This document shows positions 1 through 50,827 of a stretch of DNA of 50,827 nt, piece by piece. The notes below the pieces were generated by a model, which was not told where the DNA came from, made no database searches, and was given only the letters and a program-made list of their open reading frames with translations. Location of the stretch: the NCBI GenBank assembly GCA_020283715.1, contig JAIQCW010000232.1, positions 1 through 50,827 of the forward strand, given 5' to 3'. The stretch's first letter is position 1; every line of letters starts with the position of its first letter. The stretch is from Cytauxzoon felis (lineage: Eukaryota > Apicomplexa > Aconoidasida > Piroplasmida > Theileriidae). The position numbers and the translations under genes were made by a program.

Positions 1-119
1 AAGCGGAGGGGGAAGTAAATAGAGGAAGCCGTCTGCAAGACGAAGGAGAGGTTGTACTAGAAGGTGGAAGAGGTGAAGATAGTGATTGGACCTCGAGTGG
101 AGTCGACTGGAGAAGTGAG
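1..119 (-). repeat. PQ repeat copy R1 (truncated by window edge)
   Basis: This is the right end of a PQ element. It has the GC-rich P module in reverse orientation (ending in GGAGGGGGAAGTAAATAG), then the hairpin word GTCTGCAAGAC and a GATTGGACCTCGAGTGG word. It lies just upstream of the XRN1-like exon, probably in an intron. The DNA to its right is G-rich (20 G against 6 C in 121-180). Confidence 0.85.
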
Positions 120-560
120 TTGGATTGGACTTCAATTGTGAAGCAATCGGATTCGGTGATGGAGGATGTGAAGTATGTTCGTGTGAGTAATTTGCGTAAT
201 TTGCATATACCTGCGTATAATATGGTGATGCCGAAGTTGGAGTATGGTTTTTTTCTGGGTCAGGTTGTGATATATTCGAGTCATGATAGGTTGGTTCCGA
301 TTGGTACAAGGGGTACGATTATAGGATTATATCCTCAAAAGGTTGATGATGATAGTGATTTGTTATTGGAGGTTTTATTGCATGAACCTCATTTATCGGC
401 AACTAATTTACATGGTAGATGCAAAAATATGCATGGTTTATTTGTAAATACACAACAAGTATTACCATTATTTCCTGAAAATGTACTCAATGTTGAAGAT
501 TATATGTCATTAATTACAAAACTCGATAGAAAAAATGCAGAATATATCAAATATGCCTAA
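120..560 (+). CDS. XRN1-like 5'-3' exoribonuclease, C-terminal part only
   Basis: This open frame enters from upstream without its own ATG and ends at TAA 558-560, so it is the last exon of a larger gene. The middle of the translation (VVIYSSHDRLVPIGTRGTII, then LLLEVLLHEP and LHGRCKNMHGLFVNTQQVLPL) matches the SH3-like/D1 region that follows the catalytic core in XRN1-type exoribonucleases. In that family the region has a PxGxxGTxxGI strand, a short acidic strand and a GGRCSxxRG-like loop. XRN1 proteins degrade decapped mRNA in the cytoplasm; XRN2/Rat1 is the nuclear relative. The catalytic N-terminus lies outside the window, so activity cannot be judged. The assignment rests on one conserved module; the splice acceptor is probably between about 130 and 165. 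Confidence 0.6.
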   Translation: MDWTSIVKQSDSVMEDVKYVRVSNLRNLHIPAYNMVMPKLEYGFFLGQVVIYSSHDRLVPIGTRGTIIGLYPQKVDDDSDLLLEVLLHEPHLSATNLHGRCKNMHGLFVNTQQVLPLFPENVLNVEDYMSLITKLDRKNAEYIKYA

Positions 561-1039
561 AATTAAATCACCTTGTAAAATATAACATTTACATGTTATA
601 AAGTCAATTTTATCACCTAAATTTTATTTATTTTAGCATTTGAACTGATATTTACATGTATTTAATTTTTTTTAATTTGCACCATAATTTTGTGGTGCAA
701 AATATCTAGAATTTTAAATTATATTTAAATTGATGAAAATTAATTTTAAATGTTATAAAATAATTTAAAATGACATTTACAACTGAAGTTTAGTATTTTA
801 TTCATATTATGATGTATTATTATTTATATATATCTACTACTATCTTATATAGGTACTGTACTTCACATCATGTTAGTATTTATATAGTATATATATATAT
901 ATATATATATAATTATTATACTACATTAAATTTTATATATTTCCATATTTAATGGATGACAAGAGTGACTTTCTTTACGCTACGTGATTAGCTTATTACA
1001 ATGCGATTTTTGCATTGCCATTTAAAACTTTAATATTCA
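561..1039. other. AT-rich intergenic stretch between convergent genes
   Basis: No coding potential was found on either strand. It holds the 3' flanks of the XRN1-like gene and the FAINT gene, A/T runs and one dinucleotide tract. Confidence 0.6.
889..911. repeat. (TA)n microsatellite
   Basis: An uninterrupted alternating TA tract of about 22 bases in the 3' flank shared by two convergent genes. Confidence 0.95.
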
Positions 1040-1903
1040 TTAAGGTGATTTTGAATACTTTCTATTTCTGAATCCCTTGGTATTTGGGAATTCTCTATCT
1101 TGACTAGTTAATTCATTCTCCAAATATGATAACATAGCGATGTGTCGTTTAAAATCTCTTTCATTAATCATGGCCCATCCATCGTCAACGCGTTTATACA
1201 TGTAAACTTTAACTACATCACGATTGTCAATTAGTGATAGCAACTCATTAGACTCAGAGTACTCATTGTAATACAAGTGAATTTCGGTCAACTTATTAAT
1301 GAAACAATACCAACTGGCAACTTTATAATCAACTATTTGGGCAAAATTATAGCCTTCATCGGCTTTGAATACTAAATGCCTGACAATACCCTGTAAGTAT
1401 TCAGACATTTTATAATTCTTACCATCATCCCAGACGTTCATATCCAGTATAATATCCTTTTCACAAAATGGACCCTTTGTATCATCATATATACCCTTTT
1501 TCAGGTCGGATTTCAAGTCATCAAATCTAGGCTTTGAAATTCTATACCATTGACAATTCCAGTGTGTATAATAGAAATCAGTATTCTTGAATGGTTTTAA
1601 TCCGAGAGTCAAACGGACTAGTACTACAAAATTACTACCATTTACTAGATATACCTTAACCTTGTCGGCTTTGATATTATTTCCAGAGACCTTCCATATT
1701 TCCTGATTTCTATATGATACTTTACCGAATTTAGCCTTTTTAGAATTAGGAGTGTATGTCAAACATAATTCATTGCCATTTTGACTCTTTTTAACATCTA
1801 TATTTTCTAATTTTTCCTTGGTAATATCAATAGTTAAATCATTAATTGCATAGCATGTGTAACATGAAAATATGATGAGTGATACCATAAAAAGTACTCT
1901 CAT
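1040..1903 (-). CDS. Secreted FAINT-domain (DUF529) protein
   Basis: A single-exon protein of 287 residues. It starts with a clear signal peptide (MRVLFMVSLIIFSCYTCYA) and has no further membrane segment. The mature part has the FAINT pattern: a basic strand ending in KFGKVSYRNQEIWKV, then KVKVYLVNGSNFVVLVRL and a Trp-containing strand near NCQWYRI. A second diverged repeat follows after about residue 150 (VVDYKVASWYCF, EIHLYYNE). The FAINT family is expanded in Theileria and relatives and is usually secreted into the host cell or parasitophorous space; no biochemical activity is established. The C-terminus is basic (NRKYSKSP). The ATG at 1901-1903 is directly followed by the signal peptide, which fixes the start. 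Confidence 0.75.
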   Translation of the reverse strand: MRVLFMVSLIIFSCYTCYAINDLTIDITKEKLENIDVKKSQNGNELCLTYTPNSKKAKFGKVSYRNQEIWKVSGNNIKADKVKVYLVNGSNFVVLVRLTLGLKPFKNTDFYYTHWNCQWYRISKPRFDDLKSDLKKGIYDDTKGPFCEKDIILDMNVWDDGKNYKMSEYLQGIVRHLVFKADEGYNFAQIVDYKVASWYCFINKLTEIHLYYNEYSESNELLSLIDNRDVVKVYMYKRVDDGWAMINERDFKRHIAMLSYLENELTSQDREFPNTKGFRNRKYSKSP

Positions 1904-2263: not shown

Positions 2264-4831
2264 TCAATTTTCTTCATTTAATACCATACCATAATAAACA
2301 TATGCTCTATTGTAGATGTTTTTATATCTCGGATGTAAAAATTGCACAATTGGCGTATATTCAGCCTTTATCGGCATTGAATGATCAGAAACTGACTCAG
2401 CCCATTTATGAAAATCAATTGGCCTACCATTACCATATATATCACCACCAACTACAAAGCTGGTCTTTTTAGTGTCTAATGAATCATCACTGTTGTTCTT
2501 CGATTTTAACACGGATACTTCAACACTTGAATCTACGTTAGCCTTTTTAATCTTTGATGATAACATCGCAGATACATTTATACCCCTCTCCTTTAATCGC
2601 TCCTCCTGATTCTTATTTACCTCCAATGTACTAAATGTCTTGCCACCTGAATTGTAAATGAATGAATTACACCAATAATTTACCCAAATATACTCTAGTA
2701 GTTACATGAGTACCAAATGTCTCAAACAATTCAATCCATGGATTTATACCTAATTTAATGCATGCATCATTCCTCGGATCTGTCCTATACACCGATGGCT
2801 TACAACCGGAATCAATCGATAAACCATCAAATGATAAACCCAATCGCGATAATGCAGCCTCAAAACCCAATGTAAATGACCTATATAAGTATATATATTA
2901 AAGTATGTATCGAATGTGTTTACTTCACTCTATGTGAGGTTCAATCGCTATCTGCTCCACCTTCCATTCCACCTGAGGTCCTTCCACTAGGCGTGGAGCC
3001 TCTTATAATTACTTCCCCCTTCGCTTCCCTTAGATCAGCTACGGGTAGTCCACATGAAGTTTGATCTTCCGGGTTGATATATTATTAGTGATATTATGGG
3101 GATGATTATGGGGCTAACATAATATTATGGTGTTAATTAATCCATTTATCACCCAATTGTAAATAAAGCCTACATTTACCACGATCTCCGGGAGTGGTTC
3201 TACTCTTTAGAGATAGGTAATTGGAAGAAGCCTCCACGCCTAGTGGAAGACAAGGTGTATTGTACCTCAGTTGGAATGGCTATTGATGACAAGGAGTATC
3301 GATATCTCACTCACAAGCTCTTATATGTTATACATACCATTTTAGTGCGGTGGACATGCCAGCGACGTATTTGAAACAATAAGATTTATTGATGTAGAGT
3401 TTTTTATCTTGTGATTTGGAGGTGTCTTGAATTTGTTTGAAATTTGCCGAGGCTGAAAACTTTAATGCATCACCAGGCAATGCCAACGATACATTCGCAT
3501 CCGCCGATAACGCCTTCAAATATGCATCCGATGAACTGATCTCGGTGACCTGGAAAGGTGTAGGTTGAAGATGAAGGGAAATCAGTACTCATATAGTCAA
3601 CTTACAGTTTCAACTTTATGGCAAGAGGTATATGGTCGAATCCAACCTCCAATTGGCTGTAGAAATTCTAGGCTGTTTGATATACCACCATTATCAAGTC
3701 TCCAATGCATTTGTATAACACTTGATCTATAGCCCGGGTCCAACAAAGTCACTGAATCACCCAATGGATTTCCTTTAAATAAATCATAACCAGCTCCAAG
3801 ATATTCTATAGAATGAAATTAGCAGTTGAAATAGAAACAGAAAATTAATGTGTTTTAAATGAACAAATGGGATCGGTAATTCAAAAATTTACCTAATCCA
3901 GATGGTGTCTTATAATCGCCCGCATCTTCATCTTCTTCAGTCTCCTCCGGATCAACTTCAGTTTCCGCATCTTCATCGAGTTCCTCTTCACCATTATTTC
4001 CTTCTACTACATTTGATGTTTCGTTTCTTAAAATAATTCACCATCGTTCTCATCTCCATCTTCGTCTTCAAGTTCTGGTGCTTCATCGTCTAAACCATCT
4101 TCACCTTCCACCTCATCATCTGTAGATTTTCCGCCAAATAAGTCTAAATCTTCTTCTCCTTCTCCTTCTTCTCCTTCTTCATCACTTCCCTCTTCATTAT
4201 CTCCAGAGCCGAGATAGTGATTAGCAATTTTGGATGCGTATTTCATACCATGATCCAATACTAAGTTGCCAACCTCCTTTCCAGTTCTACTGGCAACTTT
4301 TCGCAATTTAGACTTTATGTTAAACAATCTACTCTTCTTTCCAGACTTGTTTTCTCTTTCATCTTCAACTTCATCATCAAACCTCCTCACAATAGCTCTA
4401 GGACGCTTATTATCAACATCTCTGACACCCTTCCTCCTGATTGCATCTCTTCTACTAATCGTATTCTTATCCTTCCTTACTCCCCTATTTTTTGGTGCTC
4501 CTCTAGGTTCGGGAAGTTCATTCCCTACTCTTTTGCCAGCTGCTCTTCTGGGCTTGTTTTTTGCACCCTTCTTCAACTCGTTGATCAGGAACTTAGTCTT
4601 TGAATCATCGGTCTTTTTTTCTTCAGCTATAAATGAATGGACGAAATTGGCCTTTAGTGGATGTTTACGGTTCGTATTCGAGCTATTTGTTTGCTTTATA
4701 TTAGGCTGAGCAATGTTTACTACATTATCATCGTATGAGCTTTCACCCTTTGGACCTGCCGTTACATGGAAGGTTAACAGGAAACAGTTGAAGAATAAAA
4801 AATTATAAACAAAGGCAAAATGTAGTTTCAT
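2264..4831 (-). CDS. Perforin-like protein (MACPF domain), six exons
   Basis: Exons (minus): 4042-4831, 3893-4006, 3606-3805, 3338-3549, 2684-2880, 2264-2646. They total 1896 nt with every junction GT-AG and in frame, giving 631 residues. Order: signal peptide; a long basic then very acidic low-complexity N-terminus (to about residue 300); then the MACPF domain. MACPF evidence: EYLGAGYDLFKGNP at its start, a CFKYVAGMSTALKW strand, and the signature FETFGTHVTTRVYLGGK (GTH motif), whose last glycines straddle a 37-nt intron. Near the end, WAESVSDHSMPIKAEYTPI resembles the MACPF C-terminal strand. Apicomplexan perforin-like proteins are secreted pore formers used in cell traversal or egress; which role applies here cannot be told. 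The usual C-terminal beta-rich domain is short or absent. The 457-nt intron 4 carries PQ copy R2. The first intron is only 35 nt, which makes exon 2 depend on that splice. Confidence 0.85.
2938..3290 (+). repeat. PQ repeat copy R2, inside perforin-like intron 4
   Basis: Module P (about 3010-3045) and module Q (about 3180-3222, CCACGATCTCCGGGAGTGG) are separated by about 130 bp of unrelated AT-rich DNA, more than in other copies. Hairpin words TCCACCTGAGGTCC-like and CCACTAGGCGTGG flank them. Hand counts: G17/C34 to the left (2761-2880), G27/C14 to the right (3361-3480). Confidence 0.9.
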
Positions 4832-5013: not shown

Positions 5014-6567
5014 ATGTGTAGATTTTATACTTTAAGTTTACTTTTGAACCTGTATGTTATTATTTTGGTTAGAATAGATGCATATGTGTCATCACTGGGT
5101 CATATGTTTATGTTTTTCAACAAGATGTTGTATGTTGAATCTTATAATGTAAGGAATAGTTTGTTTTACATCTTTGGGAAGTATCCTTTATCTCGAAGAT
5201 GTATAAAATCGCAGAATTTGTTTCAAAATCGCAATAGACAATTGGTTTCATATTCTAGAGACAGTATACTTAATTATTTTAATGAAAAGATCAATCGTAG
5301 ATTGGATATTAATAGAGAGAATCCTATAGGAGTATTAACATTGATGATTAAAGATTACTTTACTAAACATTTATCAATTCCATTTAAATATATATCTATG
5401 GATTCATTACCTGTAACGATTAAGGAGAATTTTGATGAGTTACAGACCCCTTTGGATCATGTTAGTAGAGATCCTAGGGATACTTATTATTTATCTGATG
5501 ACTACATTAAAAGATATGAAAATTTGGCATCTCAAGAATACATTAAAGCTATGAAGATGAATGATAGTGTTGATTATGATCGTAAATTTATCGATTATTT
5601 ATCTATGGATTTAAATCATTCTAATATTGAATTATTACCTACACATATGACTGTATATTTGCCTGGTTTATTAAGACGTGGTATTACTGGAGCTATTTAT
5701 TCAGGTATTTTGACTTCATAATGTTAAATTTCTAATAAAATTTCAGGGCAAGTCTTTAGAAGAGATGAAATTGATTCACAACATTATCCTATCTTCCATC
5801 AAATTGATGGTTATTTATTATTTAACTCTGATTCAAATGATGGAAATGAACTTCTAGAGAATAATGAAAGAGTTAATTCTATAGAGAATGATGAAATCAT
5901 TAATCATTTAAAATATACACTTGAGAAGTTAATTGATTATATCTCTAGTCATGTTGATAGTAATGGTTTGAAATTGGAAAAGAAATGGGAAGATACAACA
6001 TTCCCATTTACACATCCATCATTGGAATTGTATATTAAACATGAAGATAAATGGGTTGAGATTTTAGGTTGTGGTAGAATTAAAGATATTATAATACATA
6101 ATAATTTTGAAAATTTTCAAACAATCAATGGTGGATGGGCATTTGGTATAGGATTAGAACGTTTAGCAATGGTTTTATGTAATATTACAGATATACGTCA
6201 ATTTTGGGATAATGATGAAAGATTTTTTAAACAATATAAAGATTCTTATGCTAATGGAATTTTACCCAAATTTCAAAAGTATAGTAAAAACCCATCAATT
6301 ACACGCGATATTTCATTTTATCTAATGGATTCTAATAATACATTCAATGAAGATGAAATGTTCAAAATTATTAAATCTATCGGTGGTAATTATGTCGAAA
6401 GTATTAATATCTTATCAGAATATTTCCATCCCGTCAAACAATTAAAAAGCCTCTGCTATCGAATTATATATAGAGGATTCGAAAATATCACCAATGATTT
6501 CGTTAATAAAATACATAAAAATATCGAAAATGAATTAAAAAATACCTTCAATATCGAAATTAGATAA
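5014..6567 (+). CDS. Organellar phenylalanyl-tRNA synthetase (single chain, FARS2-like)
   Basis: Two exons, 5014-5704 and 5747-6567, joined over a 42-nt intron, give 503 residues. The intron falls exactly before the class II signature VFRRDEIDSQHYPIFHQIDG. Downstream are the motif 3 region (GGWAFGIGLERLAMVL) and a C-terminal anticodon-binding ferredoxin-fold domain (from PKFQKYSKNPSITRDISFYL to the end), the layout of monomeric mitochondrial PheRS. The enzyme charges tRNA-Phe in an organelle. The N-terminus is hydrophobic (LSLLLNLYVIILVRIDAYVSS) and then long and basic. That fits a signal plus transit peptide, so the apicoplast is possible as well as the mitochondrion. The 5' end lies 182 bp from the divergent perforin-like gene. 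Confidence 0.88.
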
Positions 6568-6574
6568 ATACACA

Positions 6575-6825
6575 CTCGAAGTCCAATCCACCTTTCTTTG
6601 TCTTGCAGACAGCTCTTCTGATTACTTCCCCTTCCAGCTCCCGTAGATCGCTTCCAGGTTCCACTTGAGGTTACATTACTACCACCTTCATCATCGCCAC
6701 GATCTCTGGGAGTGGCTATACTCTTTAGAGATAGGTAATTGGAAGAAGCCACCACGGCGAGTGGCATGACCTCAGGTGGAGAGCTGTCTGCAAGACCAAC
6801 GTTGATTGTAACCTCAGATAGAGAA
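6575..6825 (+). repeat. PQ repeat copy R3, intergenic
   Basis: It lies between the convergent PheRS and CC2D2A-like genes, within about 10 bp of the PheRS stop. P module is followed by Q (GCCACGATCTCTGGGAGTGGC), with the word CCACGGCGAGTGG and closing ACCTCAGGTGGA. Skew: G12/C19 on the left (6421-6540) to G25/C13 on the right (6841-6960). Confidence 0.92.
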
Positions 6826-6879
6826 GATATTAGAGTGGACTTGGTATATATTAATGTATAGATGTTGTAATATATTATG

Positions 6880-9800
6880 TTAGATTTTCCATGGTATATG
6901 GCATCCGATGAATATCCAGGTTGAGAGTATTCCTCCTAATAGTGGGTATACTTTGGCATAGATGACATAGATTGGTTTATCTACATCATTAACGATTAAT
7001 TTTTTAAATCTTTTTGTACATGTGAGTAAGTTTCTGATTTCATTAGTGTCAGATGTAGAAAAATGTATGGGTAATCCAATGAATGTATGATTGTATGGTA
7101 TTGGTAGATGTTTTTTATACCAATTATATTGCATCGCTTCCATATTATAGTACCAATACCATTTAGATATTTGTTTGGACTCGTGAATTTTGAATTCATA
7201 TGGTATAGTCTTTGGAATTGTATATGCTTTATCAGCCATTGGTAATATCTGTGTCATATCTGTAGCGAATTTAGGTACCTTATGTATACTCGGTATATTT
7301 AAACCCTTGCGAAAGAAGATGATATTCTTAAATCTACTCCTTAATTTCATCGGCTTAGAACTAGGATAGAATTGTCTGAAATTACCAACACGATCTCCGG
7401 GAGTTGCTTTACCATTTACGGGGAGTAAATTAGAAGAGCTACCATTCCCAATGGCGTTGTTAGATTGAATAATATTGTTACTCGATGTGTTATCTCCTCT
7501 ATTCCCAGAGATCGTCTCAGTATTTTGATTTGTATAAGAATCGTCATTGTTTCTTTGATGTATTGAACACTTGATAAATTGAGGTATATATGACCTTGGA
7601 TCATTCCATAAAATATTTGAAGTCGTTGATTTCGGTGTTGATAGATCAGATACAGGTGTGAATGGACAAGAATCTAATGGTGTTGTATCATATCCTTGAG
7701 GTATAGACCTATTTATATTAATTTCAAAGCTAAATGTATTCAAATTTAAATGTCGTTCTAAATTAATCACCTTTATATTCCCAATGAATCTTGGTGATAA
7801 TTTTAATTTACCTCTTGATAATATTCTACAACTACCATTATATACACGAATATACTTGTAAATTGTACGTGTAAAAACCCTCTTTGATATCATATTTTGG
7901 TACCTATTGACTCTATCTGATGCTCTCACCATCTTCTCCTTTGTCTTACAGACATTTATCAATCCTTGTCTTCCACCTGAGGTCTTTCCACTAGGCGTGG
8001 TGCCTCTTTTATTTACCTCCCCCTCCGCTTCCCTGAGATCAGCTACGGGTTCCACTTGAGGTCCAGTACTACTCTTCATTCCACTCGCCGTGGTGGCCTC
8101 TCTATTTACCTCACCTCGACTCCCATTGATCGTCTCGGATTCTTCGCCACGATCTCCGGGAGTGGCTATACTCTTTAGAGATAGGTAATTGGAAGAGCTC
8201 TCTGCAGGAGAACGCGAGGTTGTAACCTCAGGTGGAACAGAGTCGGATTGGACCTCGGTGGAAGAGCTATCATTATTACAATTGGATGATGTTTCTATAG
8301 AATATGTAGAGTATGAGTTTTTGTATGGAGTGGCGAAGTGTTTGGGTGTTTTGAATAATTTTCCAATGAGTGCGATTGGTTTGAAATTTAAGAGGCGATT
8401 TTTCTTTTTTTGTACAACTTGTGTATATTGTTGATTAATAGTTGTACCATCATCTGTTGATGTTTCAAGTTCATCGAAATTTGTACTTGAATCACTATTA
8501 TTAGTTTTATTCAATTCATTTATAATATGATCTTGTTGTTGATTTATAGGTTTATTTGTATTTGATACAACTTTTTTACGTCTATTACTCCATCCAATAA
8601 GATTTGGTGGCATTCCTGGATCAAATTGTTGATCTAATCTTTGTCGAAATTCCAACATATCTATAAATGATTCGAGTTTCTCATACATTTGAACATCCGT
8701 AGATATTGTACAACCTAAACCTCTCTTTGCACGCATCAATTCAATCATATCACTAATATCATTCAATATATCACGCGATGTATCAATACTATATATGTTA
8801 TTATATCATCAAACGAATGTAGAGAGCGAGCTATTGTCTATCTCCACTTGAGGTCCAATCCTACCATCGTTCCACTAGCCGTTCCACCTGAGGTTACAAC
8901 CTAGCGTTCTCCTGCAGAGAGCTCTACCAATTACCTATCCCTGAAGGGTGGAGCCACTCCCAGAGATCGTGGCAACGTTGAAGGTGTAAATGGAATGAAG
9001 AATAGCACTAGACCTCGAGTGGAACCCGTAGCTGATCTCAGGGAAGCGGAGGGGGAAGTAAATAGAAGAAGCTCCATGCAATGGAAAAGATGGACTTCAG
9101 GTGGAGAGCAGGTATGGACCACAAATGAAGACAACACTTCAGTCATTGCATTCCTTCGTGCAAACGTACCATATATTATCGGAGTGTGGTGCGGTGATCT
9201 GTATATTGGAGTATAACGAGTCATTGATGTATGCATTGAGTAATGGTTTCCATTGATTTTCATTATCCAGATCGTAGTAGATGCATGATGGATGATGATT
9301 TTGTAAATTACCCCAGAGTTGTTTATGATTGAAGATACATTCGATTGATGAGTATGGTATTAATACGAGTGTTTCATTTGGTATTAGTAATTCCTATAGG
9401 ATGGATATATTAAATTAAATCATCTTTCAACCCCACTAGTTCTATAAATATATACATACCTTTCTTGCATGTAAATTTGATTCTACTTCAACATGTTTAT
9501 TGTTATTGTCGATATATCGTATTGATAGGCTAGACAGATCATATTCGATATCATCGATTTTATTAATGGGATTGATTGTAATTTTTTCATCTGCCATATA
9601 ATCATTACCGTATAGTTCATATTTTGTTAATGGTGGTCCTATTACTTGATTAACTTTGACATTCTTAAATTCATTTGATGAAGGTACCCCATTATTTACA
9701 TTTATATTGGGATAATTATCCCCATTTACCCCATTATTATTCATTATGATAGGTTGATAATTATAAGGAAATTGTTCAGGTTTAAAATTATATATATATT

Positions 9801-12595
9801 CATTTCTAATAAATCTTTTTGGTAGATGGAATATTTTTTTATTACCAGTTTCCCAGAATGAAATAGTACCTTCAGAATGTCTAGTCATAACCCAGCAATG
9901 TTCTTTAGTACCATAATCAAGTGTACCTTTACATACATAAGCATCATAACCTAAACCTAATAGACAACTACATAATAATAATGATCTATCATGTAATCCA
10001 CCTTTTCTAGTCATTAAAAATCTTGCAGGATGTTGCCATGATTCAATATTAATAAATCCACCTAATTTAACAATACCATCATCACGTACAGTAAAATTAG
10101 ATATCCAATGTAATAATTCACCAGGTGGTGATAATTGACTAGACATTTGTATAGGTGTAACAAAATATGGTAATGGTATAATTTCAGATGAAAATTTATC
10201 ACGTATTGATGAATTATTACATGTATTTAAAAATCTACGATGTGTAATAACACCTGGAAATTTATCATTATATATTCTTTGCCATTGATCAAAATATTTA
10301 TTAAATCTTCTAGATATATCTCTATATGTATCAGATTTTATATATCTATTTTGATCATCAGGTATAAATAATTCATCTGGCATTGGTGGTAATATATACA
10401 TTTCAAATGATATTGTTGGTTTACTACCATAATGTGGTACAGTAAATCCAGATAAATTTAATACATCAGAATATATTCTAGTATTATAAAACATTTCTGC
10501 ATTATTAGAAAAACCAGAATATGATGGTACCTCATTTGATGTACCATCAATTAAACTTCTATTTGATAATATACCATTTGTATATAATCTAGATAATGGT
10601 ATCTCTACACCACCTAAAAATTCACTTGATGTATCATCATGATCCCATACTTCAATTACTACTGGACCTTTAGATGATAAATCTATAGGTAAACTATATT
10701 TTATTAATGCTGGATCTGTTAATTCTTTACTATCAACTAAATGTATAGGAAAATACATATTTTGATTATATATTGGTGATATTGTAGATTCCATTATACA
10801 TGTACAATTTACTATACCATCCCATTTTACTTTTACCATTGGATCTGATGTATTAGAATCTGTATTTGTTGATGGTAAACCTTCACATCTTAATATCCTA
10901 ATCACTAAATATTGACAATTATAATCTAAATGTGTTAATAATGATGAACCAGATATCGGTTGTGCTGGACGTATCTTTATATCCTCAAAATATCCTATAC
11001 TAGCACTCTTTATACAACAACGTATATTTCCTTGTATTGTACCACTCTGCATATTCTGTGTACCTATAGCCAATTTCTTTACTATACCCCTAACCAATGG
11101 ATATTCCTTTACAGATCTCAATGATAATACACATGTACCCAATAACATCGGTGGCTTCTTCCAAAATTTATTACGAAATACAGAATATACTTTAACAACA
11201 AAATATGATATCTTCATCTGACGTAATGTACCACTAAATGTAAACATACCAGCAGATGACCAATAATCTACATTAGATATCTCAGTACTCTTTGTAACCC
11301 AACGCATACCCATACCACTCTGAACAGATACCTTCAACATCTTAGGTGATTTAACCAATGATTCCGGTAACTGCAAAGAATGAGTAAACCACCAATTCTC
11401 AAATACAAATACAAAATCAAATACCTCCTCTAATAACATCACAACATTCAATTTATGAACAGGTAATGAACCCTCAGATTCTGGAGTTATCTCATCATTA
11501 TCCTTATTACTACCACTATACATGTTCAACTTCATCGAAAAATTCGAACGACTCTTTATTATTTCATCAAAATTCATCTCCTGATATGCATACAAACTAT
11601 TCAAACGCAATCTATGAGTCTTCCACATCTCAATACGAACTATGTAATTCTTCAATTCACCATAAGGTATACACATACGACGTCTCTGCCATATAAATAC
11701 TAAAAATGTAATTTGTACTCTGTCTAGTAGTGTCGTATCTACCTCTTCTCCACTCGCCTCCACCTGAGGTCCATCCAACTCTCTTCCACTTATCTCCACC
11801 GTTGGTCTTGCAGGCTGCCTCTTTATTTACCTATCTCTAAAGAGTATAGCCACTCCCAGAGATCGTGGCGGAAGTGAAGGTAGGGATTGGACCTCGAGTG
11901 GAACCCGCAGCTGATCTCAGGGAAGCGGAGGGGGAAGTAAAAGGAAGAGCTGACGGCAGGACTTCGACCTCAGGTGGATTAAAACTTCTCTCGTAATTCA
12001 CTTGATAAACTTACTTGGTACGGAGAGTGTATGTTGCTGTCCGGGTTTGAGGAAATAGGATGGTGTATACATGGTAGTTTCTCTTGCGTATTTGGAATAG
12101 AGGTGTTTGACATTGATGGAGTAAAAGTATGTCTGGGCTATATTTTCTAAATTGTGGAATGATGATATGTAGAATACAGTATCCCATATCCTAGGTACAA
12201 GATCAGTATTGTAAAATTGTTCATTGGCACGAGTACCTAATGATCTAACCATTTGTAACTTTTGCCATTCCCTTGCATATTCACCGGCGTCTGTTGATGA
12301 CTCGGGCTCTGATTCCTGTGTATCAGTCTCGAAATAATTCCTATCCTCATTATCCACATTCTCTTGTTCTTCTTCCTCTTCCTATAGAGATTTGTATTAG
12401 AAGTATGCGGTAATTTCAACACACCTCTTCATCTTGGTATACTGTCTCAATCCTGAGGTATTTTGAACATGTGTTATCAAACAGAGGTATAGACTTCTTA
12501 ACCTCTACATCATCCTCACTACTTTCGTCGTAAATATCCTCTTCATATTCTGACCCTGATGGCTTGCTATGCTTCCAAACTTCTAGCTTGACCAT
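6880..12595 (-). CDS. CC2D2A/CEP76-like protein: C2 plus transglutaminase-like fold, five exons
   Basis: Exons (minus): 12425-12595, 12015-12381, 9460-11699, 9170-9393, 6880-8788. The sum is 4911 nt, in frame, 1636 residues, close to human CC2D2A. The first 100 residues are acidic. A C2 region lies near residues 480-600 (YLVIRILRCEGLP, SDPMVKVKWDG, VVIEVWDHDD, EFLGGVEIPL). A transglutaminase-like fold follows (GGLHDRSLLLCSCLLGLGYD, CWVMTRHSEGTISFWE, then IFNHKQLWGN). The C-terminus (FIGLPIHFSTSD, YPLLGGILSTWIFIG) matches the family's terminal module. The TGL fold is thought to be non-catalytic. CC2D2A and CEP76 act at the ciliary transition zone and centrosome. Introns 2 and 4 carry PQ copies R6 and R5. 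Exon 5 holds R4 in an open frame, unless R4 is a stop-free intron. ATG 12593-12595 was chosen as the first in-frame start. Confidence 0.78.
7386..7442 (+). repeat. Diverged Q module inside coding sequence
   Basis: It is translated in the CC2D2A-like frame as SSSNLLPVNGKATPGDRVGN. This parallels [20 protein letters not shown] from the intact Q module about 770 bp away in the same exon. DNA similarity (ACGATCTCCGGGAGTTGC, GGAGTAAATTAGAAGAGCT) supports a decayed Q remnant fixed as protein sequence. Confidence 0.65.
7935..8266 (+). repeat. PQ repeat copy R4, inside an open coding frame
   Basis: A full element with P (about 8010-8070) and Q (about 8143-8190) lies inside exon 5 of the CC2D2A-like gene and is read through without a stop, adding about 110 residues (for example [18 protein letters not shown]). 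Skew jumps across it although transcription runs one way through both flanks: G11/C22 (7801-7920) to G35/C6 (8281-8400). Confidence 0.9.
8838..9112 (-). repeat. PQ repeat copy R5, CC2D2A-like intron 4
   Basis: Reverse orientation (Q then P). The Q stem reads CCCTGAAGGG (8939-8948) where most copies have CTCTAAAGAG, a paired change. It ends with the CTCCATGCAATGG word and ACTTCAGGTGGA. The element fills most of the 381-nt intron 8789-9169. Confidence 0.92.
11743..11979 (-). repeat. PQ repeat copy R6, CC2D2A-like intron 2
   Basis: Reverse orientation, within intron 11700-12014. It has GTTGGTCTTGCAGGCTGCC on the left arm and GAGCTGACGGCAGGAC on the right arm. It shows one of the sharpest skew jumps: G12/C30 (11581-11700) to G37/C12 (12001-12120). 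Confidence 0.93.
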
Positions 12596-18113: not shown

Positions 18114-18138
18114 TATATACACAAATAATGCACACTCA

Positions 18139-18463
18139 ACCTGAGGTTACAGTCCACCTGAGGTCCTGCCGTCAGCTCTTCTATTTACTTCCCCCTCCGC
18201 TTCCCTGAGATCAGCTACGGGTTCCACTTGAGGTCCAGTACTACACTTCATTCCACTTGAGGTTACATCCAACACATCCTTAGCATCATCATCCATCATT
18301 CCCATGATGGATGATCCATCACTAACTTCATCACTACCTTCACCGCCACGATCTCTGGGAGTGGCTCTACTCTTTAGAGATAGGTAATGGAAGAGGCTCC
18401 ACGGCGAGTGGAGAAGAGGTTGACTGGACTTCAGGTGGAAGGCAATGTTGTAACCTCGGGTGA
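18139..18463 (+). repeat. PQ repeat copy R8
   Basis: P then Q. The P-Q spacer holds a perfect 12-bp inverted repeat, ATCATCCATCAT (18288-18299) and ATGATGGATGAT (18304-18315). It is nearly identical to R9 over about 200 bp. Skew goes from G14/C29 to G24/C10 (18481-18600). Confidence 0.93.
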
Positions 18464-18528
18464 ACAATGGTACTAATGTGTTATTTATAAACGTACCGAT
18501 ATTGATTATAATGTAGGAAATGATTAGT

Positions 18529-28160: not shown

Positions 28161-28315
28161 AACTAATCTATTTCTTTATTTCATACTATACTATATATAT
28201 CACTCGAAACATACGGAGATGAGAAAAAATAGAAGTTATTGTACACCAAAGTATAGACATTGTATACATCCTAACGTCAGTTCTCCAATTAAGGATAGTA
28301 CTGCCATCAATGCCT

Positions 28316-38708: not shown

Positions 38709-41700
38709 TCATTTGCTTAATATTAATAATTCCTTAACTATTGCTGATTTACAATTATATAATTTTGGTACCCATAATGCGGTGCGATATTTATATGAAT
38801 TTAATAAATGTTCACTCTCTAATCGGAATGTTACCCACTATATATATATATTACATATGATATAATAAAAAAAGACCTACCACTATGCGTCTAAACATTT
38901 CAATTAATGATATAACTAATATTAATATATCAGATGACAAATTTTTGTTATCTATTAATTTGAATGGAGTCGTAGTCAATGCCCATGTACAACGGCAAAA
39001 TAAATTAACTATACAGGCAATATAATATGCTTCTTTTCTATATAACATTCTATCTTTTCTCCTATAATATAATTATATATTATCTAATAATATTCAATTT
39101 ACCATTTGAATATATCGGTAGGTAGTGAAAGTCCCCAATCAATAAAGTAATCCCAAGAAAAATTATAAATTGTAGCGACTGCATAACATGATATTGTAAG
39201 ACCTAAACACCAATTGCTTGATAAAATATCCAATTCAACCCTACAATATTATTATTTATAATTAATTTAACCATACCATTTAATCGACGATACAATAACA
39301 CATGCTATACCAGATAAATATTTAATCATATTTCCAACATGTAACAATTCACGATCAGCCAAAAAACGCCTCAAACATTGACAAAAACGTATAAAATATG
39401 GGAATAATATTATCAAAGGTACAATCCAATCATATACAACTATATTATAATAAATATTAAGTTTCAATGCAAAGCCTTCATATAATATGGCTTCCATTGT
39501 CTTGTAGATATACCTCCACCTGAGGTCCAATCTACCTCTTTTCGTCCTGCAGACAGCTTCCTTTATTTAGTTCCCCCTCCGCTTCCCTGAGATCAGCTGC
39601 GGGTATTCCACTTGAGGTCCAATCATTATATTCGCCACGATCTCCGGGAGTGGCATTACTCTTTAGAGATAGGTAATTAAAAGAGCTGTCTGCAAGACGA
39701 AGAGAGTTGGATTGGACTTCAGGTGGAGGTTCCATGTAGTGGTAAAAATGTAATTCAATGGAAGTTGACGGAGGAAAAGATGATATAATAATTATCGGTA
39801 AGTTATTTCATTCATTAAGTAGATTCAAGAAAAAGATATAGTTAAAACATACTTGGGTGTAAACGATTTGAATTTGTATGCATTGTATATCTGAGTGTAT
39901 AATGATTAAAATATTGTATAAACATACATAAAATATGAAAAAATATATGCAAAATCGGTTAGCGTTCTTGTGAGTGATGTTAAAATATCAGCGATAATAC
40001 TGTCATTTAATGTAATAGGTGGTCCTATGAATAATGGTGATAATAATACTCGTATAATTGCCATAAAAATTCTCATTCTAATTTTCAATTTAAAATTTTT
40101 ACCAGGAGTGAACATGATACCAACTTCAATAATAACTAAAACAAGTGGATATATATAATACCTGATAATAATTATAATAAATTTTTTAATAAAAAAAATT
40201 TACCTTACATGTGCTCCCATTATTGATAATTTACAATCCATTAAAAATATAGAAAATACAATCAAACAAAATAATGCTTTTAATGACCCAAATAAATAAA
40301 AATCACGATGACTTATTGAATAATTATTACTCAAACCAAACATAAACCTATAAAATTATATTTATTCATCAAAATTTATCCACATAAGGTTATAACCACC
40401 GTTCCAGTTGTTACAACCTTGCATTCTCTTGCAGAGAGCTCTCCACCTGAAGTACAATCCACATCTTTTTGTCCTGCAGACAGCTTCTCTAATTACTTCC
40501 CCCTTCGCTTCCCCGAGATCAGCTACGGGTTCTACACTTGAGGTTACATCCTCAACTGTACTTCCGCCACGATCTCCGGGAGTGGCTCTACTCTTTAGAG
40601 ATAGGTAATTAAAAGAGCTGACGGCAGGACTGACCTCAGGTGGAGTTACGAGTAATGGTGATAGACTTACTGATAATTTACTCCATATGTCTCAAGGTAA
40701 TGTTGGCACCATCCGCATCCCCACCAGATGAGACTATAGACAAAGAAGAATCGATAGATTGGTAATTGTGAGAGAATGATATTGACATCAACAAATCTCC
40801 CAAAATCATATGAGCATAAGAAAACACATAGTATTAATAGTATGGTACAAAGCCCTAGTATATAAGAAAGATCATGTGAGTGTAGAATTTGCGAATCAAG
40901 TTTATTTTCTACATTTTTTTTTAAATTTGCAAAATCTTCATTATGCACTGGTGAGACTAATCGAAATAACCTGAGGATACTATCATTTACTATTTTATAT
41001 CTATCTATTGATAGTAATACAGATTTATGTGATGGATAAACATCAACGAGATCATTAGTACCCAATAATTTATCCTTCTTTTTTAATAATTTATATACAC
41101 CTAATATATTAACATTGAGATAAGACTTCAATTTATCACATGAATCCCATAGCGCTGTACATGCTCTTTGTACTAATTCCCTATATGGTTGATCTATGGA
41201 TCCTTCATGTTTCTTGATATCCCTCTCCATATAATTAATTAATGTAGTTATAAATTCCATTTCTATTATATAATGAAGTACAACAGTGCGTATATCTTCA
41301 CGTAGTAACTTATTAAATATTGATAATGAATAGACTGTACTATAAGGAATACGGTTCCTAAATGTAATATTCATGCGACTAAATTTAACATTAGCAGAAG
41401 CTGAATTAATTGTATTGTTTATAATGCCTGTGAGTTGAATATCATTTTTGTCATTATTTTGTTCAACAAATGGATTCTCGAGAACTCCCATATTATCAGG
41501 AGTTAAATTTGCAGGAGAATGTACATCATCAGAGATTAAATCTCTGGACAATCTATCTAAAACAGTAGTAGATGATCTTCTAGAGATTATATTTTGTTTA
41601 TTTATTAAATTTTCTGATGTTAATAATGAAAATCTACCATCATTTGTAGTAAATGATAATTTACTTAAATCTAAATGACCATGTTCTTCATACGCTTGAC

Positions 41701-44719: not shown

Positions 44720-47700
44720 ATGTCAAGGGAAGGTGTATGGAGTGTAGCACTAGACGATGCTACGGTTGATTTGGTGCATATAAAGTTGAAGAAGGATTGT
44801 TCAATAGACAGTGAAGAATATAGAACATTGGTATTGGAATATGTTAATGATATAAAATTGTCTAATAATAATGTATTATCAATATCACAAGGTAATTATT
44901 AATAAATTATAAATTACTATAAATTAGGTATAATAACATCATTAGGTGTATTAATTAAACCAATTGGTAGTGTAGATAACTCTTGGTATGATAAATATAA
45001 GAATCTGGTCATTGGTAATATAATTATCGAAGATTCTACATATAATTCTATCAATAGAAATGATAAATATATTAATGATGACTTCCCTAGTGATAAAATT
45101 ATTATAGGAGAAGATATTAATCCATTCATATTGAACATTAAATATCTAGGCATTGGTTCATATTATCATATCAAATCCCTATATCATTATTTTATAGGCA
45201 TTAATAATAATACATCAGAATCATTATGGTTTAAACTTAATGTCATCTCTAATTGCCATACTTCAACTTTAAAGCCACTCATATTTACCGGAAAAGTAAT
45301 TTTTAATAGAGTCTTAAATATCAATATCTATGTGTATGATAAACATTTCATACTATTGGAACTCTTCAATACCAATGGTTCTTTCATAACCAAAATAATT
45401 TCATAACACTTTAGCAAAATTAGAACTCGAAATCATAGACTTGAAAATTAAAGATTTAAATTACGAAGATACACTAGTAAGTAATACATATTTATACCCA
45501 GCTATCATTACTCTTTCTTCACAATGTGATATCATTCATATGAGGTCTTTCCATTCGCCGTTCCACATTAGGTCCTTTCGCTTCCACTCGGCGTGGTGCC
45601 TTCCCTATTTAGTTTCCCTCAAACTCCCTGAGATCGTTTTCGGTTAAAGACCCTGAGTCAACCGGAGTTGATACTCTACTTCTAGCACAATTTAATGAAC
45701 TCATCAATAAATATGAAGTTAAACTTGAACAAATTGGTGCTTCATACAAAGCGCGCCCTGATACAAATGGTACAATTAGTGTTTCAGATGTAACTGATGA
45801 TACTGGTGCATATAAAGGTTTTAAACACGATCTTGGTGGAACTACTTATACTATAAACCGTATGACAATCCATGGACAGGTAGTAGATATTGATGATTTA
45901 AAGGGTACTAGTACTATTTCTGGCAAACGATACGTATTTGTATATTTTAAAAATAATGACAGCAATAATGAAAGACCACTATTGATATGTTTAGCTGTAA
46001 ATGATAGGGAAGCTGATAATAACAATATTTGGTATAAGCGGATTAAAAATGGCGATGACTATTTATGGCAGAAGGATGGAACTACTTTTCAAAGTATAAA
46101 ACCAGGTGGAGAAGACGGAAATACAATCGTTGATGAACTTAAAAATCAGCTCGATACAATTAATAATCAAGTTGGTACTAAAGATAAAGGTTACCCTAAA
46201 CCAGAACTTGTCGTAACATTAGACTATGCTGCAAAGAGTGATACAGCTGAAATTAAATATCGGACGGGTGATAAACAAGTTATTGTTACACCAATATCTG
46301 GTACAAGTTTCAAGGGTTATAAGCATGATCTTGGCGGTCAGGTGACTATAGATAAAGTTAAAATACATAATATTGACACAAAAATTACTGGTGATGATCT
46401 TCGTAATAAACGATACGTATTTGTATATTATGCTGCATCTGGTGATGAAAATCTTCATAAGCCATATTTAATATGTTTGGCTAAGACAGATGGAGTCGAT
46501 AACGAGAATAATAAATGGTATAAACGTGAGACAGGTCTCACATGGACCGATGACAGTACTAATTATAGTAGTAAAGATCAACGCGAATTAACGACCTTGC
46601 AACTAAACTCACTCAAATTAAAAGTACACTTGAAAGTGCTTCTGATACAGGTTATACTCCATTAGGTTCTATTGAAATTGATATAAGTCAAGCGCCTCAA
46701 AATCCTGCTACCAATACTGATGGAGGCAAGTATGGATCTGGAGGTATAACGATTCAAGTGTCGAAGCAAGTTGTTAAACAAAATGATCAAGCTAGTGCTA
46801 AAGAGAGTGAAACGTGGAGATGCCATAAGCATTTTAATACTTCCGGATTTACACTCGGAAAGATTACACATAGTGATGTTACTATGAAGACTCCTAGCAG
46901 TGTAAATCCTCCATTGAATGATAATATGAATAAGCAAATTGAACGAGACGGTGCTATATATGTTTATTATAATGATCCTAATAACATAACTCAGCCTAAA
47001 GTAATATGTATATCTAAAGATAATCCTGCTACTACTTCTAATAACACGTGGTATAAGGCAGGTACCGGTCCCGCTGATTGGAGTGAAGATACAACTAATT
47101 TTAAGAATACAAATCCAAATAACGTTCAAGAATCAGCACTTAATACAGCTACAGCTACTAGTAGCCTTACTGTTCAAGGTAGTACCAATTATGTAATTAA
47201 ATTAGACAAGAGGCCCCGTACTACGGGAAATATTCAGTATAGAACAAAGGATATAATTACTGTTACGAAGACAGATGGTGCTGAAGGCACTGCTGTACCA
47301 GCTAATTATGTCAGGTATACACATACACCTGATAGTCCAATTAGTGATACAATTACATATAAACATAATGGCTTTGACTTGACATTCGATCAACCTCCTA
47401 CGGGAAATGTTACAGCAGTTTATGTTTATTATGAGAAAACTAACGACACAGATAACTAATTCCCTCTAATTGTTTGTATCAAGAAATCAGATAATGAAAC
47501 AACGACTTACGCATACCATAAGAGAGGGAATACATGGACGACAATTAGTACTGATCTTGATAAGGTTGATCCCGATGATCATTGGCCTCAAAAGGAAGTT
47601 CCTACTAAAAGCGTAAAAATCATTGCAAAAATCCTATCAATATTATAAACCTGGAAGCGATCTACGGGAACTGGAAGGGGAAGTAAATAGAGGAGCCTCC

Positions 47701-47773
47701 ACGGCGAGTGGGAAGACAAGGTGGATTGGAACTGGGTGGAAAATTTCTACAGGATGAAGAAGATATTGTATAA
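44720..47773 (+). CDS. Unrecognised spliced gene with a 2.3-kb last intron
   Basis: Starts MSREGVWSVALDDATVDLVH at ATG 44720. An in-frame 34-nt-class intron (about 44893-44927) joins SISQ to GIITSLGVLIKPIG. A further intron (about 45380-45416) joins LLELFNTN to AKLELEIIDLKIKDLNYEDT. That exon ends at a strong donor, GTAAGT at 45478. The next in-frame acceptor (TTTCTACAG) is at 47752, giving a seven-codon last exon 47753-47773 (DEEDIV). The predicted protein is about 250 residues, rich in beta-type strands (FILNIKYLGIGSYYHIKSLY). I do not recognise it. The long intron holds the FAINT pseudogene between two half PQ elements. Losing the true last exon to that insertion is the alternative. Confidence 0.5.
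45535..45640 (+). repeat. PQ half-element R14a, left of FAINT pseudogene
   Basis: It has words CATTCGCCGTTCCAC, TTCCACTCGGCGTGG and a diverged P (TTTAGTTTCCCTCAAACTCC, CTGAGATCG) but no Q. Module P is in + orientation. Confidence 0.85.
45641..47648 (+). pseudogene. FAINT-domain protein pseudogene fragment
   Basis: About 2 kb coding for at least four FAINT-type repeats, each with a RYVFVYF or IYVYYNDPN strand, a PLLICLA/KVICISK strand and a W-containing end (NNIWYKR, NTWYKAGTG). It has no ATG-plus-signal-peptide start: the frame opens directly out of the PQ half-element. One base is missing or extra near 46590, where the frame changes. An in-frame TAA at 47457-47459 interrupts the last repeat, which continues as FPLIVCIKKSDNETTTYAYH to a stop at 47646-47648. 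It is flanked by inverted half PQ elements and sits in an intron of the 44720 gene. The family is normally secreted; this copy looks dead. Confidence 0.75.
47655..47740 (-). repeat. PQ half-element R14b, right of FAINT pseudogene
   Basis: It has CGATCTACGGGAACTGG, AAGGGGAAGTAAATAGAGG, then CCTCCACGGCGAGTGG. This is the reverse complement arrangement of R14a, so the two form inverted ends about 2 kb apart. Confidence 0.85.
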
Positions 47774-48116
47774 ATTTTTCATGTATATAAATAAAATCAA
47801 TATATAGTACATCTTACCCTTTGTTTTAAAGCCAAGAAACCAGATTAACCTGGTATATAGTATTCAAAATGAAGTATTATCGAAAGGTTCGATCATATTT
47901 ATAAAATGGTGAGTAATATAATTAGATTTTACTGATTGTTATGGCAGGAATGTCAGGCAGTCATCATTTAATAGAAAGTATTTGTTATGGACTAATATCC
48001 AAATATAACTTTTATTTATAAAATCTGTGGTGTGTATATGTAGATGTGTATTTTAGTATAGACTAAGTACATTTAAAGAGATTTAATAATATTTAATTTA
48101 TAAATTTATATGTAAT
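47774..48116. other. Intergenic, nothing seen
   Basis: AT-rich stretch between two + strand genes. No ORF, repeat or structure stood out apart from A/T runs before the 48117 start. Confidence 0.5.
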
Positions 48117-48639: not shown

Positions 48640-48650
48640 CGATAATTTTG

Positions 48651-49189
48651 ATGATAAATTTAGGATTTGAAGATTTTATAAATAATATTCAATCTCCTTG
48701 TAATATTCTGGAGAATTTGCGAATTAAATCATTGGATTCAACAAAGTATGTGCATGTAACATTTACACACTGATTGGTGTAGGAACGATATGAAGGACAT
48801 ATTTGTTATGGAGCAGAAAACTTTGGATTCTATGGGTATTAAGGAGCGTTTAAATTATGGTAAGTTGTAATTGTAAGGAATTGCCGTCTATAATACTTTT
48901 GTTGCATGATTATGTATATTATACTTTATAATGTTCAAATTATAAACATGTATGGACATTCGTTTAATTATACCAAGGAAATATAAGGGATATTTTTACA
49001 ATTAATATCCTAGATGTAATGATTGTATAGACCTGAATTATAGTTAATAAATCCCAAAGGTGTAATAATACATTATATTAATATATAGACCGTAATATGA
49101 TTGAACACTATGAGCTCATAATGCAAGAAATTGAAAAGGGTATAGAATCAGTCAATAATGAAATACAATCTTCCTGGAAGTACTATTAA
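48651..49189 (+). CDS. Small helical protein of 90 residues, unrecognised
   Basis: Exons 48651-48745, 48783-48859 and 49089-49189 total 273 nt and join in frame with GT-AG sites. The second intron (229 nt) is long for this region. The protein is helical throughout (MINLGFEDFINNIQSPCNIL, DIFVMEQKTLDSMGIKERLN, IEHYELIMQEIEKGIESVNN) and ends SSWKYY. The pattern resembles a small coiled-coil subunit of a larger complex, but none can be named. Confidence 0.6.
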
Positions 49190-49405
49190 TAATAAGGGGT
49201 TTCATATCATTGCCACATATTGTGGGGAATTAGAATATATTTGTAAATAAACTCTCATACTATAAAGTGATTACATAAGCAGGTCAATATTTTAATTTGA
49301 ATGATAGTTATAAATGTGTATATGTAAACGTTGGAATTTGTAAATTTATTATTGGAATAATTAGTATTAATCCTCGACATTCGGGATTATGTTGTATAAT
49401 TGGAT

Positions 49406-50827
49406 ATGTTCAATCCAAGGCCATCGAGTGGCATAAGCCATAATTTCTCCAAGCAGTCGAATATTACGACTTCACTTGACCATTTTACAGATGATTCTTA
49501 TCTAAATAAACCAAAAATCAATAATACCAGTACAATAGAATCCTCTATCGATGAAATTAAACACGTAGTCAATCTCGATCCTCACCGCATCAATAAAGAA
49601 CTTGATGTCACAAAAAATGTCGTCGAATTAGCCATGGATGGCATATTCGATAAAAATTACCTACTACAACTCATGTACAATTATAATAAATATTGCAAGT
49701 TCTCAAGTGATACACCCACATTCCGTTTCGTCGATGTCAATGTTAAAGAATATGAAACACACGAAGATAAAATCAAAAGAAGTATATATACTAAACCCGA
49801 TAGTAAAAAACCTTACTTTGATCAATTCTCTAAAGGACTCAAAGGTACGTTTTAATCCATAATCATAAACGATTTATCCCCACCATCCATATAACGTCAA
49901 ATCCTACTCTTCATACCACTCGCCATTCGACCCGAGGTCCAATCCATCTTTCTTCGTCCTCCGTCAGCTCTCCACCTGAGGTCCAATCAAACTCTTCTTC
50001 CACTCGGCGTGGAGCCTTCTTCTAAATACCTATCTCTAAAGAGTAAAGCCACTCCCAGAGATCGTGGCAAGGATAGTGATTGGACCTCAAGTGGACTACC
50101 CGTAGCTGATCTCAGGGAAGCGGAGGGGGAAGTGAATAGAAGAGGCCGTCTGCAAGACGAACATAAAATTGTAACCTCTGGTGGAATGGCTAGTGGAGAA
50201 GACATACATTGAACCTCAAGTTGAGACTTGACGATCTACTAAAATATTCAACTTTATGGTGTTTAATTATATATATTATGAATTTCATTAACGATTTATA
50301 GGTAAAACTGGTCATGGTGTTCGTATGATGTATAGGGATGATGAAATGCGTCGTAATGATGGTGTAATTGGTGTTGAGACGAATGGTAGATTGGATAATG
50401 GTTATGATACTCGTCGTGGTATTACTGATTGGAATGAGAGTGTTTTACTATCTAGTTTGAAATTGAAATCTACTGATGGTGATGTTAAGAGGAGTTCATT
50501 TATGACACCGAGTATGAAATATAAGGATTTGAATTATATGAATCAGAGGAGTATATCTCATGAATTTAAAACTGGTTTACATCATAATTTATCACATGAT
50601 CTTAGGAGTGATGGTGGATGGAAGAGTGATAGATTATCATCATTTGAAAGTAATAAAGAGATGGGTCTATTGCATACATTAGCTAATAAAGTTTTCCCTA
50701 TTAAGAATACTAGTGTTGTTAATAAAGAAGATCAATCATTATTAGAACGTATATTAGATACTCCTTTAGATAATCATGAGGATAACAAGCCAAAGGTATT
50801 TACTGAAGATAAGACGAGATTATTTGA
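49406..50827 (+). CDS. Unrecognised protein, runs off the window
   Basis: Exon 1 starts at ATG 49406 (MFNPRPSSGISHNFSKQS) and ends at a donor 49845. Exon 2 starts at 50302 and is open to the window end. The splice gives GLKGKTGHGVRMMYRDDEMR in frame. The visible 300 or so residues are hydrophilic: a helical acidic part in exon 1 (INKELDVTKNVVELAMDGIF) and a Ser/Asn/Asp-rich exon 2 with repeated short basic turns. No domain was recognised. The 457-nt intron carries PQ copy R15. Exon 1 ends balanced to C-rich on the + strand, and exon 2 begins extremely G-rich, the strongest such contrast here. Confidence 0.6.
49898..50226 (-). repeat. PQ repeat copy R15, intron of the terminal gene
   Basis: Reverse orientation with an extra left word set. 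Both strands stay open for more than 60 codons across it (+ strand reading YLSLKSKATPRDRG and [15 protein letters not shown]). Skew goes from G15/C19 (49741-49860) to G35/C8 (50281-50400). Confidence 0.93.

Follow-up and report, generated by a model that had tools for sequence, protein, structure and literature searches.

The 50,827-nt contig JAIQCW010000232.1 from Cytauxzoon felis (assembly GCA_020283715.1), hereafter the window, carries copies of a dispersed repeat, the PQ element, about which base composition changes strand. A reading of the sequence alone had proposed that these copies are, or mark, replication initiation sites. The locus thus raises the question of whether the switch belongs to the repeat itself, to replication forks or to some other process acting on the DNA beside it. 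In this piroplasm-like apicomplexan, PQ copies form a quasi-palindromic mosaic repeat family of high copy number, with arms that are built from a common word set and point outward. In the sampled copies the host flanks, native codons included, carry a short, symmetric compositional halo in which the strand running outward 5′ to 3′ has an excess of G and T and a deficit of C and A.

The window and 26 further stretches were examined, 287,120 bases in all or ~3.3% of the 8,623,106-base, 181-contig assembly. Eleven of the 27 (L009–L019) were picked on contigs with element matches and lie mostly at or near these; the skew result also holds in the remainder. Stretches L001–L008 were excluded from every statistic, and L025 (222 nt) contains no element. 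Over-represented words defined 169 clusters with a median length of 235 nt and a GC content of 0.50, compared with 0.26–0.28 in DNA 300–520 nt beyond the arms, and 166 element footprints were counted in the 287 kb, on average one per 1.7 kb. Words in both directions were present in 102 clusters, and in 101 of these the order was divergent, or outward, by an 80% criterion, the sole failure (in L017) being a narrow miss; none was convergent. The word signs that give arm direction were spread from P and Q seeds. Counts of exact-pattern pairs, which are independent of this seeding, gave 551 divergent P-minus/Q-plus pairs at 20–50 nt genome-wide and no convergent P/Q pairs at 15–45 nt. Allowing one mismatch, P cores number at least 2811 in the 8.6 Mb, a density of no less than one per 3.1 kb, and the reversed pattern has no match.

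P and Q have a GATCTC-GGGA heart in common, which makes the element quasi-palindromic and therefore C-rich on its left side and G-rich on its right whichever way it is oriented (arm-internal GC skew, −0.29 left and +0.29 right). This explains why the sign of the skew does not depend on element orientation. The arms also contain hairpins in several self-complementary versions, of which CTCTTTAGAG accounted for 60, CCGTTTACGG for 11 and CCCTTTAGGG for 3 of 111 matches, with none found in 22; pairing of the P stem was retained at four column pairs in 109, 107, 88 and 87 of the 111. Word variants lying 10–100 nt apart showed no association at p<0.05 in any of 21 pairs (smallest p 0.055; n 36–62, so that power was limited; rows with unclassified variants were removed pairwise and one of eight variants yielded no usable class). 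The lack of association is consistent with heavy exchange between copies, and gene conversion among them may be at work. The outer ends of the arms appear ragged in the 60 of 257 arms inspected. Some element centres (in L014, L017 and L034) contain tandem GTTCTTCCGGGTTGACATC-like units.

Repeats were masked by k-mers and sensitive blastn before flank skew was measured. The sequence-only reading had counted bases in 120-nt flanks; the pattern that it described stands, but those flanks were largely repeat: of the bases 60–180 nt from the centres of the 102 two-armed elements, 80% are repeat sequence. In masked flanks the GC skew (left/right) was −0.33/+0.27 at 0–25 nt, −0.25/+0.23 at 100–150 nt and −0.13/+0.12 at 200–300 nt. 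Every bin to 150 nt lay between −0.37 and −0.25 on the left and between +0.23 and +0.32 on the right, with TA skew of the same sign, while past 400 nt the mean GC skew was about zero or slightly reversed. The claim that the + strand is C-rich and A-leaning to the left of elements and G-rich and T-leaning to the right is thereby confirmed: the masked 150-nt step was positive for GC at 97 and for TA at 93 of the 102. By source, the GC step was positive at all 12 elements of the window, at 43 of 44 in loci that had been selected, for the most part, at or close to element matches and at 42 of 46 in loci taken by contig number, where 3 were negative. Its sign was the same for PQ, QP and other orientations, inside and outside frames, and with flanking frames on either strand, bearing out the earlier statement that neither element orientation nor gene strand sets it. 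The averaged comparison proposed at that time, of elements with sites lacking them, likewise gave a step at the 102 elements and none at random unmasked sites in the 287 kb (2000 drawn; mean −0.09; positive at 693 of 1624 scoreable sites in the 15–65 nt bin).

Over the first 100 nt past 270 arm edges the outward strand comprises.19–.21 G,.10–.12 C,.37–.39 T and.29–.31 A. The outer plateau is flat for ~110 nt and composition is near-symmetric by 320–400 nt, with masked flank GC content at 0.28–0.34 out to 300 nt. The TA skew flips at the repeat edge, A exceeding T inside and T exceeding A outside, which argues that the flank is not simply decayed arm. Two words are enriched on the outward strand of the outer flanks, TGTATA (103 compared with 26 on the other strand) and GAGTAT (49 compared with 4).

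The elements of the window are given below with 120-nt flank counts, the T/A exceptions listed being examples and not an exhaustive set.

1–143, + strand: outward (+) arm of an element truncated by the window start; right flank G/C 37/13
2922–3301: element with a '-' arm (2936–3077) and a '+' arm (3179–3273) in one footprint
6555–6854: two-armed element; flank G/C 11/17 left, 27/14 right
7922–8276: two-armed element (Q- ... P+), open in frame within the open reading frame at 6883–8805 (− strand); flank G/C 11/22 left, 34/7 right
8277–8576, + strand: stretch beyond a footprint that illustrates the strand-asymmetry halo on the right-hand side
8831–9135: two-armed element (P- ... Q+)
11726–11991: two-armed element
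15057–15374: two-armed element (P- ... Q+); left side weak, G/C 24/26
18101–18502: two-armed element
19768–20123: two-armed element (Q- ... P+)
28280–28585: two-armed element; A exceeds T on the right
35388–35639: two-armed element in an inferred intron of an eIF5B/IF-2-like gene; right-side exception, G/C 11/15
39486–39770: two-armed element (Q- ... P+); A exceeds T on the right
40374–40659: two-armed element (Q- ... P+); right side weak, G/C 25/22, and A exceeds T there
45501–45652, − strand: single '-' arm; outward (left) side C-rich, G/C 10/19
47621–47778, + strand: single '+' arm; right side without G excess, G/C 15/17
49876–50238: two-armed element (P- ... Q+)

Longer elements have larger steps (rho 0.35, p 2.5e-4, n=102). 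The reach of the halo is ~300 nt where the gap to the next element is 400–900 nt and ~500 nt where the gap exceeds 1800 nt, from starting values of 0.37 and 0.24, respectively. In 19 split elements, with centres of 73–906 nt and flanks taken from k-mer cluster edges without later blastn masking, the pooled centre lacks an outward step (+0.10, −0.06) and the outer flanks carry one (−0.30, +0.30), with several single exceptions. The 66 single arms have an outward halo of 0.33 at 0–50 nt and, on the inward side, a weaker opposite skew of −0.09 to −0.19 to 200 nt, as if the partner arm were hidden or lost. We infer that the element, and not fork direction, causes the halo.

The halo extends into codons. 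The skew is strongest at third codon positions. To the left of elements the GC skew there was −0.69 in frames on the + strand and −0.74 in frames on the − strand, and to the right +0.61 and +0.62, respectively, compared with ~0.25 on the coding strand far from elements. At two-fold sites within 0–120 nt, G/(A+G) was 0.56–0.59 where the sense strand runs outward and 0.07–0.08 where it runs inward, the value at 600–1000 nt being 0.22–0.25; T/(C+T) was correspondingly 0.92–0.97 and 0.68–0.73, and 0.88–0.89 at 600–1000 nt. As synonymous sites are shifted along both transition axes, with A to G as well as C to T on the outward strand, a mutational cause is likely rather than selection on the protein.

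Element copies occupy intergenic DNA, an inferred intron and, in frame, exons. Here, frames are stop-to-stop and not annotated genes. Footprints open in at least one frame numbered 25 of 102, compared with 3.0 expected from shuffles, and 21 of the 102 lie wholly inside one frame of at least 120 aa. Of these, the 17 copies in which a P heart and a Q heart are both present agree without exception in phase and sense, and 27 of 55 other elements have that phase, a count that is partly circular because a shift tends to break the frame. A Pfam scan of 16 frames that bear an element gave a match for nine, including ABC (two), Sec1, Sec7, PIG-V and Brix, and none for seven. Structure matches connect the Sec1 frame with Vps33, the Brix frame with RPF2 and one ABC frame with ABC-F proteins. 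Some exonic copies are apparently translated within their host proteins, as judged from reading frames, and peptides such as NYLSLK...ATPGDRG would be shared among them.

In the RPF2-like frame the best structure match spans chain residues 139–190 before the insert and 192–242 after it, the match being one of the whole sequence (E 2.2e-9), with no single stretch below 0.001 alone. G-ending codons number 1 and C-ending codons 9 among the 50 native codons preceding the insert; among the 50 that follow it, the counts are 14 and 3. The GT[AG][AT] nearest the left border sits in native codons ~18 nt upstream, and splicing out of the insert seems unlikely. In the eIF5B-like gene of the window the intron has its own GT and AG, more than 100 nt away from the element. 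The element-bearing genes of the window are as follows.

6883–8805, − strand: 641-aa stop-free frame with an element in frame; weak Pfam match to CEP76_C (E 1.1e-5, residues 569–636)
34261–36650, + strand: eIF5B/IF-2-like gene whose inferred intron contains an element; IF-2 and GTP_EFTU_D4 above cut-off, GTP_EFTU and GTP_EFTU_D2 below theirs
35236–35768, + strand: inferred GT...AG intron of the eIF5B/IF-2-like gene, with the element at 35388–35639 inside

A lone P-like unit (direct-repeat family D2) at 7384–7454 lies in the same frame as the element at 7922–8276 and has the translation SSNLLPVNGKATPGDR.

What process could write such a halo? The nearest compositional parallel is with mammalian CpG-island promoters. 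The portion of the source consulted (PMC2927911) describes an asymmetry of the same sign whose A-to-G part is mirrored upstream, and for which antisense transcription or origins have been proposed. By the same partial account, these promoters share with PQ a GC-rich island, a downstream asymmetry that agrees in sign for both A to G and C to T, a mirrored A-to-G component upstream and a local decay of the C-to-T component. Indeed, in terms of composition alone, PQ presents the GC-rich island with mirrored A-to-G and C-to-T asymmetry expected of a divergent GC-rich promoter. However, the local C-to-T pattern of the promoters extends 1–2 kb in that account, whereas the PQ halo is over by 300–400 nt, lies on a dispersed repeat and is found in exons and an intron as well.

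The agreement in sign and in both transitions leads us to rank divergent transcription with R-loops first and local DNA synthesis second. We tentatively favor, as possible rather than probable, a reading in which the element anchors a short outward opening of the duplex that would drive A-to-G and C-to-T changes on the outward strand. From purine-rich arms, the duplex would be opened repeatedly outward over 100–300 nt, and the outward strand would be either displaced or freshly synthesized. Short divergent transcription with RNA:DNA hybrids may be the likeliest form, followed by DNA synthesis that is primed outward or belongs to repair. The arm words would be kept alike by recombination or copying between thousands of loci, at positions old enough for synonymous usage to have shifted. 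The wider proposition, that a self-homogenizing palindromic mosaic, translated inside host proteins, is strewn through the nuclear genome at intervals of about 3 kb and that each copy runs an undescribed short, bidirectional, strand-specific mutation process that rewrites neighboring codon usage, is advanced with more doubt still.

A number of results weigh against outward duplex opening. The halo depends neither on the longest G run in the arm nor on whether the arm is P or Q, which weakens R-loop nucleation by G clusters. Transcription by RNA polymerase III ended by T-runs is at best weakly indicated, as T5 runs reduced the halo no more than A5 controls did, and T4 runs slightly more than A4 controls in two of four bins. 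Actin and HSP70 are highly expressed genes, yet their frames (n=2) show no A-to-G shift (0.20 and 0.26), so that ordinary transcription is seemingly not the source of the pattern here; the GC skew at their third positions, +0.40 and +0.77, reflects the rarity of C. Within the arms, six comparisons of substitutions between the strands gave no significant asymmetry (smallest p 0.091), and an arm's own length predicts the halo no better than that of the other arm (rho 0.17 and 0.20). Near-consensus copies have a halo as strong as that of diverged copies, with no dependence on this proxy of age. Finally, the direction of base change is read from composition without an outgroup.

The strongest competitor, although somewhat unlikely in our judgment, is local outward DNA synthesis, in which breakage, stalling or template switching at the palindrome would be followed by error-prone repair over 100–300 nt and gene conversion would keep the arms alike. 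Wobble errors would make both A-to-G and C-to-T changes in the newly synthesized outward strand, and such synthesis fits the sign, the short reach, the strand-independence, the palindromic arms, the unassociated variants and the absent age dependence. Human meiotic double-strand-break hotspots resemble PQ in having strand-asymmetric mutation on both sides, but the sign is opposite and the scale is 2 kb rather than 0.3 kb. There, in our present interpretation of the available part of the report, the mutated C and A lie on the resected single strand, left of the break on the forward strand (PMC7615360). Local synthesis would thus need an error in the new strand and not damage in the exposed one. 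By the same partial source, damage during break resection, with C and A mutated on the 3′-ended strand, predicts a G/T-rich left flank, the opposite of that seen, and is not supported (PMC7615360). An effect of gene strand is not supported either, the step being the same with flanking frames on either strand.

Quite unlikely is that the halo came first, PQ having inserted into pre-existing strand-switch sites such as divergent promoters, R-loop sites or origins. The equally strong halo of near-consensus copies would suit such target choice, as would the existence of element-free divergent steps (35 scanned peaks at z≥3 in 238 kb). However, strong element-free steps are rare, with 7 scanned peaks at z≥4 in 238 kb compared with 29 of 102 elements, the step increases with element length, and third-base usage changes across an insertion inside a coding frame, that of the RPF2-like protein.

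Replication origins, with the skew as fork polarity, are decidedly improbable. The part of this proposal that holds is the bidirectional outward asymmetry anchored at the elements, with the sign as described. That sign matches a leading-strand G/T excess, the step is independent of gene strand, and the reach is slightly longer at wider gaps. The attribution to fork direction does not hold, because the reach is nearly fixed. A fork sawtooth should fade in proportion to the gap, but reach goes only from ~300 to ~500 nt as the gap goes from below 900 to above 1800 nt; a polymerase hand-over confined to the first few hundred nucleotides would escape this objection. A kb-scale sawtooth is also lacking. 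The cumulative-skew minimum of the window at that scale, at ~24.5–26 kb, falls where there is no element (none lies between 20123 and 28280) and coincides with the switch of long frames from the − to the + strand. Moreover, at least 2811 P cores in 8.6 Mb would be very dense for origins, and copies in frame within coding frames and in an intron are unexpected of a dedicated origin.

That the flanks are decayed outer arms, the skew being repeat composition, is very improbable: some flank words are arm-like (AGGTTG, 27 compared with 1 on the other strand; TCGAGT, 21 compared with 2) and a few remnants escaped masking, but the TA skew reverses at the masked edge, GC content drops to 0.29–0.33, and the flanking codons of the RPF2-like frame align to the protein family outside the insert yet switch third-base usage.

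As an element, PQ is closest in kind to the Rickettsia palindromic elements (Ogata et al. 2000, 2002), which, in the text available from PMC10969869, occur in frame in unrelated genes, encode a conserved peptide and are present at other genomic sites too. The likeness, palindromic repeats in frame in unrelated protein genes, is one of description and not of sequence, and PQ differs in residing in an apicomplexan nuclear genome, in its at least 2811 P cores and in its modular mosaic. The flank halo is a feature of PQ, with none mentioned for the Rickettsia elements in that portion of text (PMC10969869). For apicomplexan genomes, a survey as far as its available text goes concludes that Apicomplexa lack DNA transposons and discards candidate miniature inverted-repeat transposable elements (MITEs) as likely false positives; within this clade, it lists no transposable elements in C. 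felis, T. parva, T. annulata or T. orientalis and elements resembling long interspersed nuclear elements in T. equi and some Babesia (PMC9141347). The accessible part of a further report gives T. parva as having no transposable elements found so far (PMC2612703). An earlier description of PQ was not recognized in the literature, as judged from titles and the beginnings of abstracts.

The search for PF13358, PF10551 and PF00665, the only three transposase/integrase families searched, returned no match in the assembly. PQ is like MITEs or fold-back elements and introner elements in its non-autonomous appearance, its inverted-repeat architecture and its location within genes. Splice sites at the element ends, as introners would have, were absent from the two genes inspected (RPF2-like and eIF5B-like). 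A reverse transcriptase of its own, as for a retroelement, was not found either, the matches to PF00078 being confined to one 1010-aa frame that is telomerase-like by eye (L035 1–2829; C56:73693 ff).

If the element does act on its flanks in this way, a single small genome offers thousands of natural reporters of local strand-specific mutation, many with native synonymous codons as the read-out, and the cause of short-range strand asymmetry (transcription, R-loops or primed synthesis) becomes directly testable. In PQ, protein-coding palindromic repeats would then have a counterpart among eukaryotes, and in a group that is said, in the text at hand, to lack DNA transposons (PMC9141347). A caution for other genomes is that GC-skew steps at repeats need not signify origins.

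Elsewhere in the window, Rfam gave no match at the gathering threshold, and a scan of 39000–41200 for bacterial-type promoters and terminators returned chance numbers only (15 compared with 15.0 and 1 compared with 0.9). The frames at 45613–47459 may resemble FAINT-domain (DUF529) proteins of Theileria. At 20630–23662 (− strand) lies an exportin-1 frame with 60–63% identity to Babesia and Theileria proteins. In a tree, its product falls inside a supported 12-row piroplasm group, its position within that group not being resolved. Among the other stretches, some contain long element-free DNA (L013 1–10000, L012 1–8135 and L019 1–9600). A second, AT-rich repeat family of ~260 nt is represented by 13 copies. 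Of these, 12 lie directly beside an outward arm, and 7 of the 12 have an arm on either side; examples are listed here, with 9 more in the sample.

L018 6541–6796: AT-rich ~260-nt repeat
L021 197–452: AT-rich ~260-nt repeat
L023 2464–2730: AT-rich ~260-nt repeat
L024 9179–9429: AT-rich ~260-nt repeat

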